Shown one piece after another: positions 7,471 through 26,772 of a stretch of 27,521 nucleotides of DNA (the first letter of the stretch is position 1; every line of letters begins with the position of its first letter). This DNA is from a virus. Location: the IMG/VR virus record IMGVR_UViG_3300005613_000339, positions 1 through 27,521 of that record, one strand, 5' to 3'. A program made the position numbers and the translations under genes. The notes under the pieces are model-generated. The model ran no database searches. It had not been told where the DNA came from and worked only from the letters and a program-made list of their open reading frames with translations.

Positions 7471-7586
7471 TTATCTCCTTTTTTAAGGTTGTTGTCTTGT
7501 CGGGTCTTGTCGAGTCTTGTCAGGTCGGGTCTTGTCGGGTCTTGTCAGGTCGGGTCTTGTCTCGTCAAGTCCCGTCTTATCACGTC
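7471..7586. repeat. 5-bp-period RTC array 1 in gene leader
   Basis: From 7494 to 7586, 19 consecutive triplets (18 GTC, one ATC) occur exactly every 5 bp, separated by two variable bases (TT, GG, GA, AG, AA, CC, TC, AC). On the minus strand it reads GACNN and lies directly upstream of the RBS of the 175-aa gene. The 31-bp segment 7471-7501 recurs exactly at 8168-8198 before array 2. Confidence 0.85.
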
Positions 7587-7593
7587 TCATATT

Positions 7594-8163
7594 TTAACTT
7601 ACATCACTCCATACAATCTTATCAACTGTGAATCTCCCATAATATCCGCCATTTGCTGGCCTGAATACACCTAATCCGATAAAATTACCTGCTTCTTTTA
7701 AATGTATTGTAAAAACATCCTCAGTTATTGTTTCATCCAAAATGTGAAAAATAATATTACCTCCCCACGTGTGTACTGTTGGAAAGCATTTGGGCACCCT
7801 TGACCCTGATTTTCCACGTTGACCTCTTGAATTTCCCATAACCCAAAGGCCATCAACTTCTTCTTTCTTTTTATCTAACTTCATCCCCTCTGTTACCAAA
7901 ATTCCGGCTAAAAAATGCTTTGTATAGGTAGCTTTACCCCTTCCTTTTATAGGCATAGATATAAAGCTGGCTGCTGTTTCTATGCTTTTCTTAAAAGACA
8001 TTGGCGGTATAAACATATATCCATCTTCCGTGTAATGGCCTTTTTCTCGCCATGTCCTTTTTTCATAATCATGTGGACTTTCTTTTTCTAATTTCGCCAT
8101 CCCATGGAATCTTCCTTGTTGGTAGGAACTGATCCCCGTTATTGTTGCGATTGCTTGTTTCAC
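7594..8163 (-). CDS. Conserved phage protein with Gly-rich C-terminal motif
   Basis: A 189-aa protein starting at GTG (8163) with AAGGAGA 8 nt upstream. Conserved-looking features are DGYMFIPPMSFKKSIETAAS (about 47-66), a basic Gly segment RGQRGKSGSRVPK (113-125), HTWGGNIIFHI (131-141) and a C-terminal GLGVFRPANGGYYGRF (163-178). The last motif, followed by one beta strand, recalls Gly-rich loops of ferredoxin-like RAMP proteins and is frequent in phage proteins of unknown role. No catalytic residues are apparent. The gene has RTC repeat arrays on both sides. Confidence 0.5.
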   Translation of the reverse strand: MKQAIATITGISSYQQGRFHGMAKLEKESPHDYEKRTWREKGHYTEDGYMFIPPMSFKKSIETAASFISMPIKGRGKATYTKHFLAGILVTEGMKLDKKKEEVDGLWVMGNSRGQRGKSGSRVPKCFPTVHTWGGNIIFHILDETITEDVFTIHLKEAGNFIGLGVFRPANGGYYGRFTVDKIVWSDVS

Positions 8164-8167
8164 TTAA

Positions 8168-8313
8168 TTATCTCCTTTTTTAAGGTTGTTGTCTTGTCAG
8201 GTCGAGTCAAGTCAAGTCGTATCATATCGAGTCAAGTCGCGTCGTGTCATATCGAGTCAAGTCATGTCCTGTCGAGTCTTGTCAGGTCGCGTCAAGTCGC
8301 GTCAAGTCAAGTC
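8168..8313. repeat. 5-bp-period RTC array 2 in gene leader
   Basis: From 8191 to 8313, 25 consecutive triplets (22 GTC, three ATC) occur in perfect 5-bp register. The two bases between them vary freely (AA, GA, GC, AG, TT, AT, GT, CT). It lies immediately upstream of the RBS of the 189-aa gene, in what should be its 5' leader, and begins with the same 31-bp segment as array 1. Confidence 0.88.
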
Positions 8314-8384
8314 AGAATAAAAATCTATAGGTTTTCAGGCGGGTCTCTTTCTTTCATTCGCTCCTTGCGATTGTGTTATTTTAT

Positions 8385-11250: not shown

Positions 11251-11316
11251 GGTTTACAACAAGTTATAGTTACCCTATCCTCAATGCCGTAGGTCAGCTT
11301 GAGCCGGTGGTTATGT
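11251..11316 (-). other. attC-like site A (last of the left cassette array)
   Basis: Minus strand: left core ACATAAC (11316-11310) followed by CACCGGCTCAAGCTGACC, like the left half of site F, and right half GTAACTATAACTTGTTG ending GTAAACC. The stop codon of the 101-aa gene lies inside it, and CACATAAC nearly complements the start of that gene's cassette (GTTATCTGTG). The right core lacks the GTT, so it is degenerate. Confidence 0.5.
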
Positions 11317-14150: not shown

Positions 14151-14353
14151 AAAAACCTCACAGATAACAGTGCGTTATATGGAGACCGAGTAAAAATGCT
14201 ATAAACCAATAGCCCCGGTCTCCTCTCTTGTTGGGGACAGCATACGATGGCATCACCGTCATATAGACCAAAGGCCCGCTCATCCACCGCAACGCACGGG
14301 CAGGAATGACTATGCTGGTTTGCCCCTCTGTGTATATCGTGCAATGTCTCCAT
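14147..14353 (-). CDS. Possible cassette ORF
   Basis: A 68-aa ORF that opens METLHDIHRGANQHSHSCPC; the ATG overlaps the cassette start GTTATATGG of site F, and it ends by TGA overlapping the next ATG. It has CPC and CC pairs but no recognised fold. The last third runs through the cassette end, as often happens with cassette ORFs. No Shine-Dalgarno is evident, so coding status is uncertain. Confidence 0.35.
   Translation of the reverse strand: METLHDIHRGANQHSHSCPCVAVDERAFGLYDGDAIVCCPQQERRPGLLVYSIFTRSPYNALLSVRFL
14162..14180 (-). other. Collapsed 19-bp attC-like junction (I)
   Basis: ATATAAC-GCACT-GTTATCT on the minus strand: both core boxes are present but only 5 bp lie between them. The left core with flank, CTCCATATAACGC, is the exact reverse complement of the cassette start at site F (GCGTTATATGGAG), so the boundary is a true cassette end with the hairpin lost. 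Confidence 0.5.
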
Positions 14354-14483
14354 ATAACGCCAAGGGTAAGCTGCCAAGTGGGTAGGCCCTCACCATCTCC
14401 GATTACTATTAACGCCTACTTCCTAAGCTCCCTCACTGGCTTTCGCCAGCGTCCACTTGGTCAGCTTGACCCGCTGGTTATAG
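14352..14483 (-). other. attC site F (132 bp, well formed)
   Basis: Minus strand: CTATAAC at the left and GTTATAT at the right. Left AAGCTGACCAAGTGG pairs with right CCACTTGGCAGCTT with single unpaired bases, as in long attC sites. The same alignment continues into GTTATA/TATAAC cores. The upstream cassette start GTTATAAAG complements CTATAAC. This is one of the clearest sites in the window. Confidence 0.85.
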
Positions 14484-14672: not shown

Positions 14673-14729
14673 GCCTAACATTGAATTAACCCGCGCCTTC
14701 AGGCATCGGGGTTGAGTGAGTGGTTAGCT
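14673..14729 (-). other. attC site G (57 bp, classical)
   Basis: Minus strand: AGCTAAC, then CACTCACTCAACCCCG, apex TGCCTGAAGGC, then GCGGGTTAATTCAAT and GTTAGGC. The right half, GCGCGG-TTAATTCA, is almost that of the aadA-type 59-base element, and the AACCCCG/CGGGTT stem is clear. The end of the 74-aa gene lies inside it. Confidence 0.85.
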
Positions 14730-20376: not shown

Positions 20377-20579
20377 GAGGCTCTTTTTTGGTCTTGTGTG
20401 AGGTACATAGGTTCCTCCATATGGATTCCTAAGATTTCTTCCAAGTCATACAGGATGCGGTTCAATGAATCATTATCAGGGTCGGCCTGGGTGTAGTAAT
20501 GTCGCCAGGCTTTGACTTTTCTGATTAGTAGGCTTAAGAGAGATTTTTCCATTTTGGGATTATTGTTATTGAGACTCAT
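20355..20579 (-). CDS. Hypothetical small protein downstream of rsr
   Basis: A 74-aa protein from the ATG at 20579, MSLNNNNPKMEKSLLSLLIR, with KVKAWRHYYTQADPDNDSLNRI and LEEILGI. Helical and charged. The start overlaps the last five codons of rsr, so it is coupled to it; an upstream ATG at 20597 has no better ribosome site. No family recognised; being coupled to rsr it may belong with the Ro60 genes. Confidence 0.4.
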   Translation of the reverse strand: MSLNNNNPKMEKSLLSLLIRKVKAWRHYYTQADPDNDSLNRILYDLEEILGIHMEEPMYLTQDQKRASCPFVKI

Positions 20580-21888
20580 ATTTTCTAATATAATCAATTA
20601 CAGACTCACTCCATCCATCAATATGCATCCAAGCACCATAACCCACCCCATTTTTATACGATGATACATTAATCATATACCCTTTACCCTTTGGGTCTGG
20701 AACCATATCATGAGCCTGTTCATCTGTAATGACAATCATCCTGTCATATTTTTCTATGACATCAACAGATTTAATTGACCTACCGAGATAAGTACCATCA
20801 TAAGGTTGGCTGTTGGAGATAGCATCCCTCAATGCAAATCCGTGACGAGCAGGCACAAGGACTTCATATTGAGAGAATGAATAAACCTTGACCTGTTCGC
20901 AGATTTCTCTTAACAGTATTGCTAAGCCAAGACCAGCATCAATCCTTAGCATCCCAGACTTTTGTGAAAGAGAATTATCCATTGAACCAGAAACATCAAC
21001 AAGCAAAATTGTTTTCCCCCCCAGTTTCTCTTGAGAGGCCAAGCATTTCATCATAGCTCTTTCAATATGATCTTCCCATTGAGGAACATATCGAGCGGCA
21101 GCAATAAAACGAAAAGGGAGAACCCGTTCGACTTTCATTTTGTCAAGAGAATTAAAGATAATTTGCTCATCTACGCCAACTGAATTCATATTTCGTAGAT
21201 TTCTAAGCAACGCCATTGCTCCTAAACGATTCTCTTTCATTAATCGTTCCCAAGTTTCCTTTTTATCCTTACCAGTTGATAAAGCTACTTCCCAGGTATC
21301 CGGTGGTTGAAGAGTATTATCAACCAATCTCTTCCATAAAACTTCTTGCTCTTTATCTTTGGGTTTAGCATGGGAAAGGAAAAGAGCATCTCTGAGTTTT
21401 ATTTTATCAGGTCTGTTATATTTGCTAAGTTGATATTGATCAAACTTTGGGAATGCTTTTGCTAATCCCTTTTTGATTTGAGAAGCAAGAGGACATTTTC
21501 CCTCTTTCCAATAGATAGCAAGAAATTCTGTTATTTCATCTGGCCTCTGAATAACCCTTGCTAATGTCTCTTTGACTAAATCCCTATGTGCAACTCCATT
21601 GACTTTAGTAGATAGCCTTGCCATTTCTCTTACTATCAATAAAGGAATATGACGCAATTTCATCTTTTCCCTTGCCTCAATAGCCATATCAGCTACCTTT
21701 TGAGGGGCTACATGAGGAATCAAAGAAATAATTCTATCAGCAATATCTTCACCATTCTCATAGAATTGCTTTTCCCATAATAGACAGGCCATCACGGAAC
21801 GCCTTAATTGCTGTTCTGGGTTGATATGCTTTGCTGTAGCTCCCTCATGGGTGTGTATTGGTTGCCTAGGAATATTTAATCTTGCCAT
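20566..21888 (-). CDS. rsr: Ro60/Rsr homologue (TROVE plus vWA domains)
   Basis: A 440-aa protein. Residues 1-285 are a TROVE domain of HEAT-like helices (QQLRRSVMACLLWEKQFYEN at 26-45; ADMAIEAREKMKLRHIPLLI at 66-85; PFRFIAAARYVP at 258-269), and 293-430 a von Willebrand A domain with an intact MIDAS: DVSGSM (Asp298, Ser300, Ser302), Thr366 in DGTYLG and Asp389 in ITDE. Ro60 rings bind Y RNAs on their outer face and misfolded RNA in the hole; in bacteria they couple to exoribonucleases such as PNPase. AAAGGAGGTTCACT precedes ATG. Three Y-RNA genes lie directly upstream on the same strand. In a phage the complex may act on RNA stability or host RNA quality control; this is inference. Confidence 0.9.
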   Translation of the reverse strand: MARLNIPRQPIHTHEGATAKHINPEQQLRRSVMACLLWEKQFYENGEDIADRIISLIPHVAPQKVADMAIEAREKMKLRHIPLLIVREMARLSTKVNGVAHRDLVKETLARVIQRPDEITEFLAIYWKEGKCPLASQIKKGLAKAFPKFDQYQLSKYNRPDKIKLRDALFLSHAKPKDKEQEVLWKRLVDNTLQPPDTWEVALSTGKDKKETWERLMKENRLGAMALLRNLRNMNSVGVDEQIIFNSLDKMKVERVLPFRFIAAARYVPQWEDHIERAMMKCLASQEKLGGKTILLVDVSGSMDNSLSQKSGMLRIDAGLGLAILLREICEQVKVYSFSQYEVLVPARHGFALRDAISNSQPYDGTYLGRSIKSVDVIEKYDRMIVITDEQAHDMVPDPKGKGYMINVSSYKNGVGYGAWMHIDGWSESVIDYIRKYESQ

Positions 21889-22083: not shown

Positions 22084-22227
22084 TTGCCGAGGAACATACG
22101 AAAAGAGAACGTTAAGCGCTCTACCTAGCTGAGCTATCCCTATCATAAAATTGGGATAGGGAGCAGGATTTGAACCTGCGGCCTCTCGCTCCCAATGCGA
22201 AGTAACTCTTTCCTACGCCATCGGCAA
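22084..22227 (-). ncRNA. Y RNA 1 with circularly permuted tRNA-like domain
   Basis: A 144-nt element. Ends TTGCCGA/TCGGCAA pair, then bulge TGGCGT, AGGAA/TTCCT and GAAAGAG/CTCTTTTC, which is the Ro-binding type of stem (CCGATGG). Inside, in order: hairpin TCGC-ATTGGGA-GCGA with a 7-nt anticodon-like loop, T-arm GCAGG-TTCAAAT-CCTGC (22179-22163), acceptor strand CTATCCC, a linker, acceptor strand GGGATAG, and D-arm GCTC-AGCTAGGTA-GAGC (22134-22118). The 3' half of the tRNA fold precedes the 5' half, the topology of bacterial Y RNAs that mimic tRNA. It neighbours rsr. Confidence 0.85.
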
Positions 22228-23624: not shown

Positions 23625-23645
23625 CTATATAACTTCTTGTTATAA
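23622..23645 (+). repeat. Plus-strand copy of the shared attC right-half motif
   Basis: TAACTATATAACTTCTTGTT followed by ATAA differs by one base from the motif at sites A-E on the minus strand and, as there, points in the direction of transcription. It lies between the 64-aa gene and rusA. No left attC half is evident. Confidence 0.55.
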
Positions 23646-23674: not shown

Positions 23675-24088
23675 ATGAAAATCAAAATAACAATCTATGG
23701 TAAACCGATAGCAAAGAAAAGACCACGATTTTTCCGTCGAGGTAATTTTGTTGGAACCTATAATGCACAAGAAATGGAAGAAGGTTTTTGGATGCTGGAA
23801 GCAAAACAGCAAATTAAACAGAAATTGAATGGCCCGGTCGTATTAAATGCGGGTTTCTTTTTTGGGCCTTTAAAATCATGGAGCAAGAAAAAAAGGCTGG
23901 AAGTTGACAATGGTTGGCAACCGCCCCATAGCAAAAAACCAGACCTGGATAATCTCATAAAATTTGTCAAGGACTGCCTGAATGGGCTTGCATGGGATGA
24001 TGATAGCCAGGTCTGTAAAATTGAGGCATTAAAATGTTATGACAAAATCGCAAGAACAGACATAGAAATTATGGAATTAAAACAATAG
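23675..24088 (+). CDS. rusA: RusA-type Holliday junction resolvase
   Basis: A 137-aa nuclease from the ATG at 23675, with GGGGGA upstream. KIKITIYGKPIAKKRPRFFR (N-terminus), then PHSKKPDLDNLIKFVKDCLN (about 85-104), and AWDDDSQVCKIEALK. KPDLDN with D-LNG and DDDSQV carries the metal-binding aspartates of RusA. It resolves branched DNA made in recombination and replication before packaging, and works alongside RecT and the exonuclease from the other arm. Confidence 0.87.
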   Translation: MKIKITIYGKPIAKKRPRFFRRGNFVGTYNAQEMEEGFWMLEAKQQIKQKLNGPVVLNAGFFFGPLKSWSKKKRLEVDNGWQPPHSKKPDLDNLIKFVKDCLNGLAWDDDSQVCKIEALKCYDKIARTDIEIMELKQ

Positions 24089-24543: not shown

Positions 24544-24574
24544 ATGGATAATGAGTTAATTATTGGGAGGCAAT

Positions 24575-24784
24575 ATGGAATTATTTGAATATTGGTGGGA
24601 AGAATCACAACAATACAAAAATCCAGGAACAATAAAGGAAATAGCAAAGGAAGCGTGGGAAGCGGCAAAAAATCTACATGGCAAGGCTGCCTCCCAACCC
24701 AGCACTCCAGAGGACGTTGAATATCGTGGGCATCATTCATTTAGGTGCCCATACTGCAATAATGTGATTCTCCAACGCCGCTGA
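24575..24784 (+). CDS. Small protein with C-terminal CxxC
   Basis: A 69-aa protein from the ATG at 24575 after GGGAGGCAAT. MELFEYWWEESQQYKNPGTI, a helix KEIAKEAWEAAKNL, and RCPYCNN near the C-terminus. The stop is followed within 8 bp by the core GTTAAGT that starts the methyltransferase cassette. No family recognised. Confidence 0.5.
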   Translation: MELFEYWWEESQQYKNPGTIKEIAKEAWEAAKNLHGKAASQPSTPEDVEYRGHHSFRCPYCNNVILQRR

Positions 24785-24810
24785 TTCAATCGTTAAGTGG
24801 ATTTTAGATT

Positions 24811-25350
24811 ATGGCAAGTATTGAATGGGAAACACCCCAGGAGTTTTTTGATAAGCTAAATGCTGAATTTGCTTTTGATATAGATCTCTGTGCCAGTAAA
24901 CACAATGCAAAGCTACCAAATTATTTTAGTATTTCTGAAAACGCTCTTTATCAAAAGTGGGTAGGTTCTTGTTGGCTAAATCCACCATACGATAGAGACA
25001 TTGGGCGTTGGATAGCCAAAGCGTATGAATCAGCTCAGGAAGGTGCAATGGTTGTATGCTTATTGCAGTGTCGATCAGGTGATACAAAGTGGTTTCATAA
25101 TTTCGTCATGAAATCTTCTGAAATGCGCTTTATAAAAGACCGTCTGCATTTTGGACTAAAGGGCAAATTCAGCAGGGCTAATATATCCAGCATTGTAGTT
25201 GTTTTTCGGCCCTATTGTACGGGGCCTCCCTTGACTTCATCTATAGATACAAAGGGGAATCCACTTAACAAGCACATAGACCAGACCCTTATGGGCTTGC
25301 GCCCATCGGGCAGGTCATGTCAGCGTTATGCCGCAAAGTGGGAGATATAA
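24811..25350 (+). CDS. Phage-type DNA N6-adenine methyltransferase in an integron cassette
   Basis: A 179-aa enzyme. WETPQEFFDKLNAEFAFDID (residues 5-24), LCASKHNAKLPNYF, catalytic motif WLNPPYDRDI (about 54-63; NPPY transfers methyl to adenine N6), VVCLLQCRSGDTKWFHNFV (about 77-95), RFIKDRLHFG and a final strand IVVVFRPY. This is the phage Dam family, GATC-type or nonspecific. The gene lies between cassette start GTTAAGTGG (24792) and the complementary CCACTTAAC (25261), inside attC site M. About 30 C-terminal residues are translated attC sequence, not family sequence. The ATG follows the cassette boundary by 18 bp with only GTGGA as ribosome site. Confidence 0.85.
   Translation: MASIEWETPQEFFDKLNAEFAFDIDLCASKHNAKLPNYFSISENALYQKWVGSCWLNPPYDRDIGRWIAKAYESAQEGAMVVCLLQCRSGDTKWFHNFVMKSSEMRFIKDRLHFGLKGKFSRANISSIVVVFRPYCTGPPLTSSIDTKGNPLNKHIDQTLMGLRPSGRSCQRYAAKWEI
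25263..25331 (+). other. attC site M (69 bp, well formed)
   Basis: Plus strand: ACTTAAC ... GTTATGC. Stem GACC/GGTC, CCC/GGG and apex ATGGGC-TTGC-GCCCAT, with unpaired bases between blocks. The next cassette starts GTTATGCC and ends GGCATAAC. It overlaps the 3' end of the methyltransferase ORF. Confidence 0.87.
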
Positions 25351-25352
25351 AT

Positions 25353-25592
25353 ATGAGGCAATTAGATTTATTGCAAATTGTTATGGGAATGAAAAAAGGT
25401 CAAGCGTACAAATTGACGAGGGAAGACATGCTCGGGTGTGCTGATGGTATGTTGGAATCAGCATTTGACGGGCCACCCCGACAGAGCGATATTAATGATT
25501 TCATCAAAGATGCGTCACAGAATTGGGGTGTTGAATTTAAACATGATCTTCTTTCAGACATGTGGACAATGTGTAAAATAGAAGAGGCATAA
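25353..25592 (+). CDS. Cassette gene, hypothetical
   Basis: A 79-aa protein from the ATG at 25353 after GGGAGATATAA. MRQLDLLQIVMGMKKGQAYK, then LTREDMLGCADGMLESAFDG and WTMCKIEEA. Mostly helical; no family recognised. It lies between sites M and N: 22 bp after core GTTATGCC, and its stop codon TAA is part of GGCATAAC, a textbook single-gene cassette. Confidence 0.55.
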   Translation: MRQLDLLQIVMGMKKGQAYKLTREDMLGCADGMLESAFDGPPRQSDINDFIKDASQNWGVEFKHDLLSDMWTMCKIEEA

Positions 25593-25647
25593 CCACCGCA
25601 TTCACTGGACCGGAAAAAGCCCCGGCCAGTGATGCTTAACGTTAGAT
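25587..25647 (+). other. attC site N (61 bp, well formed)
   Basis: Plus strand: GCATAAC ... GTTAGAT (a perfect GTTRRRY). GCATTCACTGG pairs with CCAGTGATGC leaving one unpaired T, then A bulged and CCGG/CCGG around the apex. The pattern of two stems with extra-helical bases on one side is what integron integrase recognises in folded attC. Confidence 0.9.
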
Positions 25648-25662
25648 TTCAGGAGGTAAATT

Positions 25663-25851
25663 ATGATTAAAATAGTGGTAACGACTACAGATTATGGTGC
25701 GGCTGCTCACGGTTTTGGAGATCCCGTAAGAGTATCCGAGATTATTGAAATCCCGACAAAGAGCATTCCACCGAATTTAAAGAAGCACCTTGATTTGATT
25801 GATAATGGGTACTCAACTATTTCTTTTTCACTATTAAGGGAAGAAATCTAA
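25663..25851 (+). CDS. Cassette gene, hypothetical
   Basis: A 62-aa protein, MIKIVVTTTDYGAAAHGFGD, then PVRVSEIIEIPTKSIPPNLK and LDLIDNGYSTISFSLLREE. Alternating strands and one helix; no family recognised. TTCAGGAGGTAAATT before ATG. The cassette start GTTAGATTT and the end AAATCTAAC, which contains the stop codon, are exact complements over 9 bp. Confidence 0.6.
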   Translation: MIKIVVTTTDYGAAAHGFGDPVRVSEIIEIPTKSIPPNLKKHLDLIDNGYSTISFSLLREEI

Positions 25852-25890
25852 CAAGCCCTTGAACAACCGACTGGCTTTTCGCTGCGCTCA
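25846..25890 (+). other. Left half of an attC (site O, right half missing)
   Basis: ATCTAAC followed by AAGCCCTTGAACAACCGAC and an apex-like GGCTTTTCGCTGCGCTC has the composition of the left half and tip of an attC. No complementary right half or GTT core follows before the replication gene. The array seems to have been broken here. Confidence 0.55.
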
Positions 25891-25950
25891 TGCATAAACA
25901 ACCTATAATTTCCTATCTTCAAACATGACTCACAAGGAAGGATAGCATAT

Positions 25951-26772
25951 TTGGCAAGTCCACAAGTTGAGAATGGATACCTTAAAATATCAATGGAGCT
26001 GGTTGAAGTACTGGCAAGGTATAGAATACCAGGCCAGGAAATGCAGTTGCTATGGGTATTATTAAGAAAGACCTGGGGGTGGAAGAAGAAAGAAGATAGC
26101 ATATCATTATCTCAGTTTGCAAAATTAACCGGAATTGATAGGGGTAAATGTTCACGTCTCCTAAAATCACTAATTGCTAAAAATATCTTAAGAAATACTG
26201 TTGACCAAAAGGTCAACCCCCAGCCCAAGAAATATAGATTCAATAAGGATTATGAGACATGGGTAACTGTTGACCAAAAGGTAGCCCGTGACCATAAGGT
26301 CAACAGAGTGTTGACCAAAAGGTCATCAAAAGGGGTGACCAAAAGGTCAACCACAATAGATAATATAGATACTATACAATATATATTGTCAGAACTATTA
26401 TTTTCGCTGATTAAAAAGAGAAGAGAAACATTCAAAAAACCAGATTTACAGAAATGGGCCGATCATATTGATTTGATGATTAGGGTAGATAAAAGGGAGA
26501 CAGCAGAGATTAAGGAAGTGATTAAATGGTGCCAGCAAGATAAGTTCTGGAAAAATAATATTTTGAGCACTGCTAAATTGAGACAGCAATATGATAGCCT
26601 GGCACTAAAAATGGTGGAAGAAACAGGAGGAGTTCAAGTTACAACAGAGGAGCCTCACGAGCTCGACCCATATTATCAGGATAACAGAACTGAAGAGGAG
26701 AAACAGAGGGACGCACTGAGATGGAATGAGTTTTGTGATGTGGTGAAAAAGAGTGTTAAGACGGTGAAATAA
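25951..26772 (+). CDS. Replication initiator, lambda O-like, containing the origin
   Basis: A 273-aa protein. Residues 1-85 are the phage replication-O-type winged helix (GQEMQLLWVLLRKTWGWKKK, then DSISLSQFAKLTGIDRGKCS and LLKSLIAKNIL). The middle (about 84-135) is low complexity, with repeats of VDQKV/VLTKRS translated from the DNA iterons. The C-terminal third is helical and charged, probably the helicase-contact part. Start is TTG at 25951 with GGAAGGATAG upstream; an ATG at codon 16 is the alternative. It should melt the origin and recruit host DnaB. It is last in the rightward operon, before a terminator. Confidence 0.8.
   Translation: MASPQVENGYLKISMELVEVLARYRIPGQEMQLLWVLLRKTWGWKKKEDSISLSQFAKLTGIDRGKCSRLLKSLIAKNILRNTVDQKVNPQPKKYRFNKDYETWVTVDQKVARDHKVNRVLTKRSSKGVTKRSTTIDNIDTIQYILSELLFSLIKKRRETFKKPDLQKWADHIDLMIRVDKRETAEIKEVIKWCQQDKFWKNNILSTAKLRQQYDSLALKMVEETGGVQVTTEEPHELDPYYQDNRTEEEKQRDALRWNEFCDVVKKSVKTVK
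26200..26351 (+). repeat. Five palindromic iterons: probable replication origin
   Basis: GTTGACCAAAAGGTCAAC and close variants occur at 26200-26217, 26269-26286, 26287-26304, 26310-26327 and 26334-26351. Each is an inverted repeat TTGACC/GGTCAA around four bases. An AT-rich tract with ATAGATAATATAGATACTAT follows at 26352-26400. Iterons plus an AT-rich region inside the initiator gene match the lambda ori arrangement. Confidence 0.8.

Follow-up and report, generated by a model that had tools for sequence, protein, structure and literature searches.

A predicted integron cassette array with a Dam-type adenine methyltransferase gene in the replication arm of an uncultured tailed phage

The record IMGVR_UViG_3300005613_000339 is a linear fragment from an uncultured virus of bacteria, and its whole length of 27,521 bases (27.5 kb) was analyzed and is called the window here. 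Between the phage genes for a RusA endonuclease and a replication protein O, the plus strand holds at least three tandem cassette-like units with two intact candidate attC sites, M and N, and one truncated site at the end (Table 1). The 5' end of each unit is complementary to its own R'' box: GTTAAGTGGATT (24792-24803) pairs with AATCCACTTAAC (25258-25269) over 12 bp in cassette 1, GTTATGCC (25325-25332) with GGCATAAC (25586-25593) over 8 bp in cassette 2, and GTTAGATTTC (25641-25650) with GAAATCTAAC (25843-25852) over 10 bp in cassette 3. The initial annotation had reported three plus-strand cassettes in a row with complementary ends; all three pairs were found, slightly longer than it had given. 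The ORFs that start at 24811, 25353 and 25663 are all on the plus strand, and cassette ORFs and sites are aligned with the phage operon, which bears out the claim that their orientation follows transcription. The ORFs of cassettes 2 and 3 have ribosome-binding sites shortly 3' of the R' box, and in cassette 3 this sequence (AGGAGGT) lies directly behind the box. Profile searches of Pfam and PHROG assigned neither of these two products to a family. Promoter matches were no commoner than in shuffled sequences, and no obvious cassette promoters were seen. Inside the downstream replication O gene there are four GTTGACCAAAAGGT-like copies (26197-26347), which are probably iterons of the origin, of the kind seen in lambda-type phages.

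Table 1. Features of the two arms, with positions in the window. R1 is the covariance model trained on bacterial attC sites; z compares a fold with those of shuffled sequences.
Feature	Position	Strand	Remarks
Cassette-like unit, opposite-arm array	14174..14358	-	13-bp end complementarity GTTATATGGAGAC/GTCTCCATATAAC
attC, opposite-arm array	14352..14483	-	91-nt loop; R1 13.7 bits; perfect L''/L' architecture; z -4.14
attC, opposite-arm array	14673..14729	-	3' of ORF 14923-14699; R1 21.3 bits
RusA endonuclease gene (phage)	23675..24088	+	PF05866, E 1.5e-27; upstream phage flank of the array
Possible cassette 0 (tentative)	24563..24791	+	ORF 24575-24784 (69 aa), no family
Weak attC-like site K	24692..24798	+	Overlaps end of ORF 24575-24784; R1 22.4 bits, E 5e-4
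Cassette 1 (Dam methyltransferase)	24792..25324	+	12-bp end complementarity; ORF and attC between the ends
Dam-type DNA N6-adenine methyltransferase gene	24811..25350	+	179 aa, NPPY motif; PF05869, E 2.4e-27; PHROG 111, E 1.2e-45
attC site M	25263..25331	+	R'' ACTTAAC, L'' CAT[A]GACC, L' GGTCATG, R' GTTATGC
Cassette 2	25325..25640	+	8-bp end complementarity; ORF 25353-25592 (79 aa)
attC site N	25587..25647	+	R'' GCATAAC, L'' CAT[T]CACT, L' AGTGATG, R' GTTAGAT
Cassette 3	25641..25852	+	10-bp end complementarity; ORF 25663-25851 (62 aa)
Truncated last attC	25846..25905	+	R'' and left arm kept; L' and R' half absent
Replication protein O gene (phage)	25951..26772	+	PF04492, E 3.7e-20; PHROG 277; downstream phage flank

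The product of cassette 1 matches the PF05869 profile at 96.1 bits against a cut-off of 28.1, with the NPPY motif conserved, and the first cassette thus carries a Dam-type adenine methyltransferase, as had been proposed. Its reading frame has no stop codon ahead of the attC site, which sets it apart from typical cassette genes, but runs through M into the next cassette and ends at 25350, with NPLNKHIDQTLMGLRPSGRSCQRYAAKWEI as the read-through tail. A Dam relative in one of the phages compared (L001) ends in AIDK, which resembles the SIDTKG found directly before the R'' box in the window when the ends are compared ungapped (the aligner placed them differently); the attC site therefore sits at the expected position of the stop codon. 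Methyltransferases of the same type were found in 1113 GenBank phage records, all matches being below 60% identity, and in seven IMG/VR relatives (L001-L007) with 44-51% identity and no attC nearby. Since these seven relatives have no attC, the gene is normally an ordinary phage gene. Close relatives with the same flanks and no attC-like structure had been named beforehand as evidence that would speak against a cassette. The seven do lack attC sites, but none of them is close and shares the flanks, and the cassette reading stands.

Sites M and N were evaluated with a covariance model, R1, built from 30 bacterial attC sites, none from a phage, and including the R''-R' and L''-L' pairs. Its training sites came from arrays of class 1 integrons and of chromosomal ones (largely Rhodocyclaceae), all gathered via IntI1. 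An attC model search had been suggested as a check of the cassettes; R1 recovered M at 21.1 bits and N at 18.3 bits, together with the site at 24692-24798 (site K) and two minus-strand sites, everything else in the window scoring at most 11.2 bits. M and N, 256 bp apart, show the same layout, that is, AAC, five nucleotides, an 8-base L'' with an unpaired fourth base, a loop, L', five to six nucleotides and GTT, and in both of them L'' and L' form seven of seven Watson-Crick pairs. Sites with this full architecture occur three times in the window (M, N and 14483 on the minus strand), against a mean of 0.4 in shuffled sequences. The bottom-strand DNA of M and N is more stably folded than almost every shuffled version (z -3.55 for M and -3.11 for N), in agreement with the clean folds described for them earlier. 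A search of the window with Rfam returned no attC match. Class 1 control sites reach 50-68 bits with R1 against 18-22 bits in the window, and the window sites are therefore divergent. A fairer standard is Tetrasphaera phage TJE1, whose sites recombine in experiments: its best attC site scored 22.1 bits, on a level with M and N; as R1 missed two other TJE1 sites and both sites of Polaribacter phage P12002L, its sensitivity is limited. This evidence supports M and N as attC sites and the units that they delimit as integron cassettes.

The two ends of the array are less regular. The site claimed for the third cassette is present as a left half from 25846, but the L' and R' half is missing and the site is thus truncated; neither R1 nor the second model, R2, whose training includes M, N, the minus-strand site 14673-14729 and TJE1 sites, matched it, and its fold reaches only -3.8 kcal/mol. 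At the left end, the Dam gene does lie in the first complete cassette, as stated in the initial annotation, but site K hints at a preceding one. This possible cassette 0 opens with A|TTGGGAGGCA, which has a ribosome-binding site inside, and its start ATTGGGAGGCA (24562-24572) is complementary at 10 of 11 positions to TGCCTCCCAAC (24688-24698), inside ORF 24575-24784. Site K scored only 13.0 bits with R2 and has no stable fold (z 0.48); it is kept as tentative because R2 and folding do not back its R1 score. Possibly it is the attC of an additional cassette upstream, in which case the Dam cassette would not lead the array. At the left edge TT is preceded by an A instead of a G, and inspection by eye recognized no attI there. 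No integron integrase was found in the linear 27.5-kb record with the TIGR02249 profile, and the record thus has no intI gene, as a complete integron would.

A second array on the opposite arm, likewise oriented with transcription, had also been claimed, and two minus-strand sites near 14.4-14.7 kb agree with it. The one at 14352-14483 scored 19.9 bits with R2 though absent from the training of that model. The fold of the other, 14673-14729, is no better than those of its shuffles (z 0.07). On the 3' side of the latter, a 27-nt unit, GTTAGGCTGTGTGCAGTCTAACCTACT (14690-14650, minus strand), resembles an empty mini-cassette.

Several other features of the window were recorded. A gene for a TROVE/Ro-like protein (20566-21888, minus strand; PF05731, E 1.1e-16) adjoins a Y-RNA-like match (22085-22209, minus strand; 35.3 bits with Rfam YrlA, short of its gathering score of 69), which includes most of the sole predicted tRNA; the two make up a phage-borne Ro/Y-RNA pair. 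Two short GTCNN-type repeat arrays (7494-7596 and 8196-8323) with the common leader TTTTTTAAGGTTGTTGTC lie on either side of ORF 7594-8163. A TAACTATATAACTTGTTGTTA-like repeat of about 21 nt occurs in six intergenic copies, at 11266, 11968, 13156, 13406 and 13668 on the minus strand and at 23630 on the plus strand, all in the coding direction, and was absent from the other loci fetched. Its sequence is similar to the right half found in attC sites; its copies have no matching left arm, and it was rejected as attC.

As a background set we used 78 loci of related phages, obtained from portal and capsid scans. In 980 kb of these relatives, R1 found a single site of at least 18 bits (L117, 1099-1228, plus strand, 33.7 bits), and R2, run over 1.15 Mb, again gave it as the sole find among the relatives. 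Sites of the attC type are thus rare in this phage group, with this record and L117 as the cases among the 78 loci, and the window is a genuine exception. Such rarity points to sporadic capture. The phage of L117 is related by terminase, portal and capsid; its one strong attC site, like site K, extends over the 3' end of a short ORF, here one with a CxxC motif at its C-terminus.

Judged by sequence, the locus is best classified as a CALIN, a cluster of attC sites lacking an integron integrase. It occupies the DNA-replication arm of a tailed phage, with the RusA side to its left and the O gene to its right. Several attC sites close together (at least two), the box architecture, the end complementarity, a single orientation and no integrase are the features used for this class, and all were found; it is because no integrase gene is present in the record that the array is assigned to CALINs. 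One or more of the cassettes would have been inserted during infection or lysogeny by the integrase of an integron in a host, which would work in trans on the bottom strand in its folded form. The insertion point may have been an existing attC site, or a GNT-type secondary or attG site at the left edge. Integron integrases also cut secondary GNT sites (PMC10127599) and, as cited in PMC12901181, genomic attG sites (Loot et al. 2024), an activity that could explain an array with no attI. Because every ORF runs in the direction of the phage operon, the cassettes probably owe their expression to read-through transcription of that operon. The methyltransferase, by membership of its family, would methylate the phage DNA and blunt host restriction. 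While M and N are intact, the Dam cassette and the second cassette may leave the phage by excision and enter an integron of a host; clean excision would not be expected for the last cassette because its attC is truncated. We give this explanation as a whole (a phage CALIN, a host integrase in trans, read-through expression and Dam acting against restriction) a probability of about 0.85.

That the sites are attC look-alikes, ordinary intergenic hairpins or terminators arisen by chance, is very improbable. Their bit scores are modest and simple 8-bp end pairs are common, with 14.6 per shuffled window. However, the complementarity is ordered over cassettes of 212-478 bp, each pair chaining to the next, and a series of three units with complementary ends, arranged head to tail with gaps of 30-130 nt, appeared in none of 300 dinucleotide-preserving shuffles. 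A strict test, which combines perfect architecture with a minimum of 8 nt of end complementarity, was passed by M and N in the window, by three of three TJE1 cassettes and by 53 matches in bacterial integron loci, yet it was nearly silent in 966 kb of portal- or capsid-related phage DNA, with one match, a tandem-repeat artefact in L147. As terminators, M and N were rejected, as there is no U tract and the terminator scan had no match at either site.

The other two alternatives accept the cassettes and differ from the preferred explanation in their origin. The array could be a fossil, its cassettes acquired through homologous or illegitimate recombination with a CALIN of a host chromosome, not through an integrase, and being now fixed genes with decaying attC sites. 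The truncated last attC, the weak first site and a Dam frame that reads through its own attC are all compatible with such a history, and illegitimate recombination has been proposed for some phage CALINs by Qi et al. (PMC9892861). Neutral decay should, however, erode the seven of seven L pairs, the unpaired base and the 8-12 bp of end complementarity that M and N retain, and we regard a fossil array as somewhat unlikely. Alternatively, the cassette may have been born in the phage, a resident Dam gene having gained an attC site and become mobilizable instead of being imported as a cassette. The wide occurrence of this Dam type among GenBank phages, always below 60% identity, the seven fetched relatives with no nearby attC and the attC position at the would-be stop codon all suit such a birth. 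Yet no phage was found with the same Dam in the same place and no attC, and a phage-derived Dam cassette imported from an integron would look identical; birth in the phage is thus an unlikely origin. The broader proposal that two arrays on divergent arms, each aligned with transcription, were separately captured from host integrons and kept by selection for expression, and that a phage Dam gene was turned into a cassette, which would make phages both recipients and makers of counter-defence cassettes, is equally doubtful.

Exchange of the cassettes through host integrons, as put forward in the initial annotation, found no backing in the searches. No member of the Dam family occurred in 35 integron-bearing genomes, a search for the same methyltransferase cassette in bacterial integrons having been suggested as a check, and no homologue of cassettes 2 and 3 was found among IMG/VR viral contigs or GenBank phages, nor any of cassettes 2 and 0 in plasmids. 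As no integron or other phage array yielded a homologue of any cassette, we treat movement of the cassettes as inferred. The searches for relatives returned a single 41% match with the terminase and distant matches with the replication protein O; the window DNA had no match among GenBank phages, and the genome scan with the terminase revealed no host prophage. None of these searches yielded a close relative with an empty site. If the sites are active, the phage would pick up and pass on a restriction-countering gene via host integrons, and two systems of gene sharing that are normally investigated separately would thereby be connected.

Phage cassette arrays have been known since 2023, and the window is a well-supported further case. 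Qi et al. (2023) described 17 CALINs from phages among 10,705 genomes, with five methyltransferases on phage-associated cassettes, and observed recombination by IntI1 in five of six phage attC sites tested, those of TJE1 recombining with attI1 (PMC9892861). The CALINs of the virulent phages TJE1, P12002L and Pseudoalteromonas phage PH101 (PMC9892861) are, like the one presented here, integrase-less attC arrays in tailed phages with methyltransferase cassettes; the cassettes point in one direction here as in TJE1 and PH101, and the strict test that M and N pass is also passed by those of TJE1. The window shares with class 1 and Rhodocyclaceae chromosomal integron arrays the order of the attC boxes, the unpaired fourth L'' base, the spacers of 5-6 nt and the end complementarity, but it differs from them in having no intI and no recognized attI, and in R1 scores of 18-22 bits versus 50-68 for class 1. 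Its Dam protein is about 50-55% identical over the catalytic domain to the PF05869 enzymes of Paenibacillus phage Lily and Brevibacillus phage Abouo and has the same NPPY motif, whereas the inspected genes of Lily and of L001-L007 are ordinary phage genes with no attC. Unlike the CALINs of Qi et al., this one belongs to an uncultured phage in which two arrays lie apart, on arms transcribed in opposite directions, and it includes a PF05869 Dam methyltransferase whose frame reads through its attC. With the general principle already published in 2023, what the window adds is one more lineage, a cassette of the Dam type and the presence of two arrays in the same genome.
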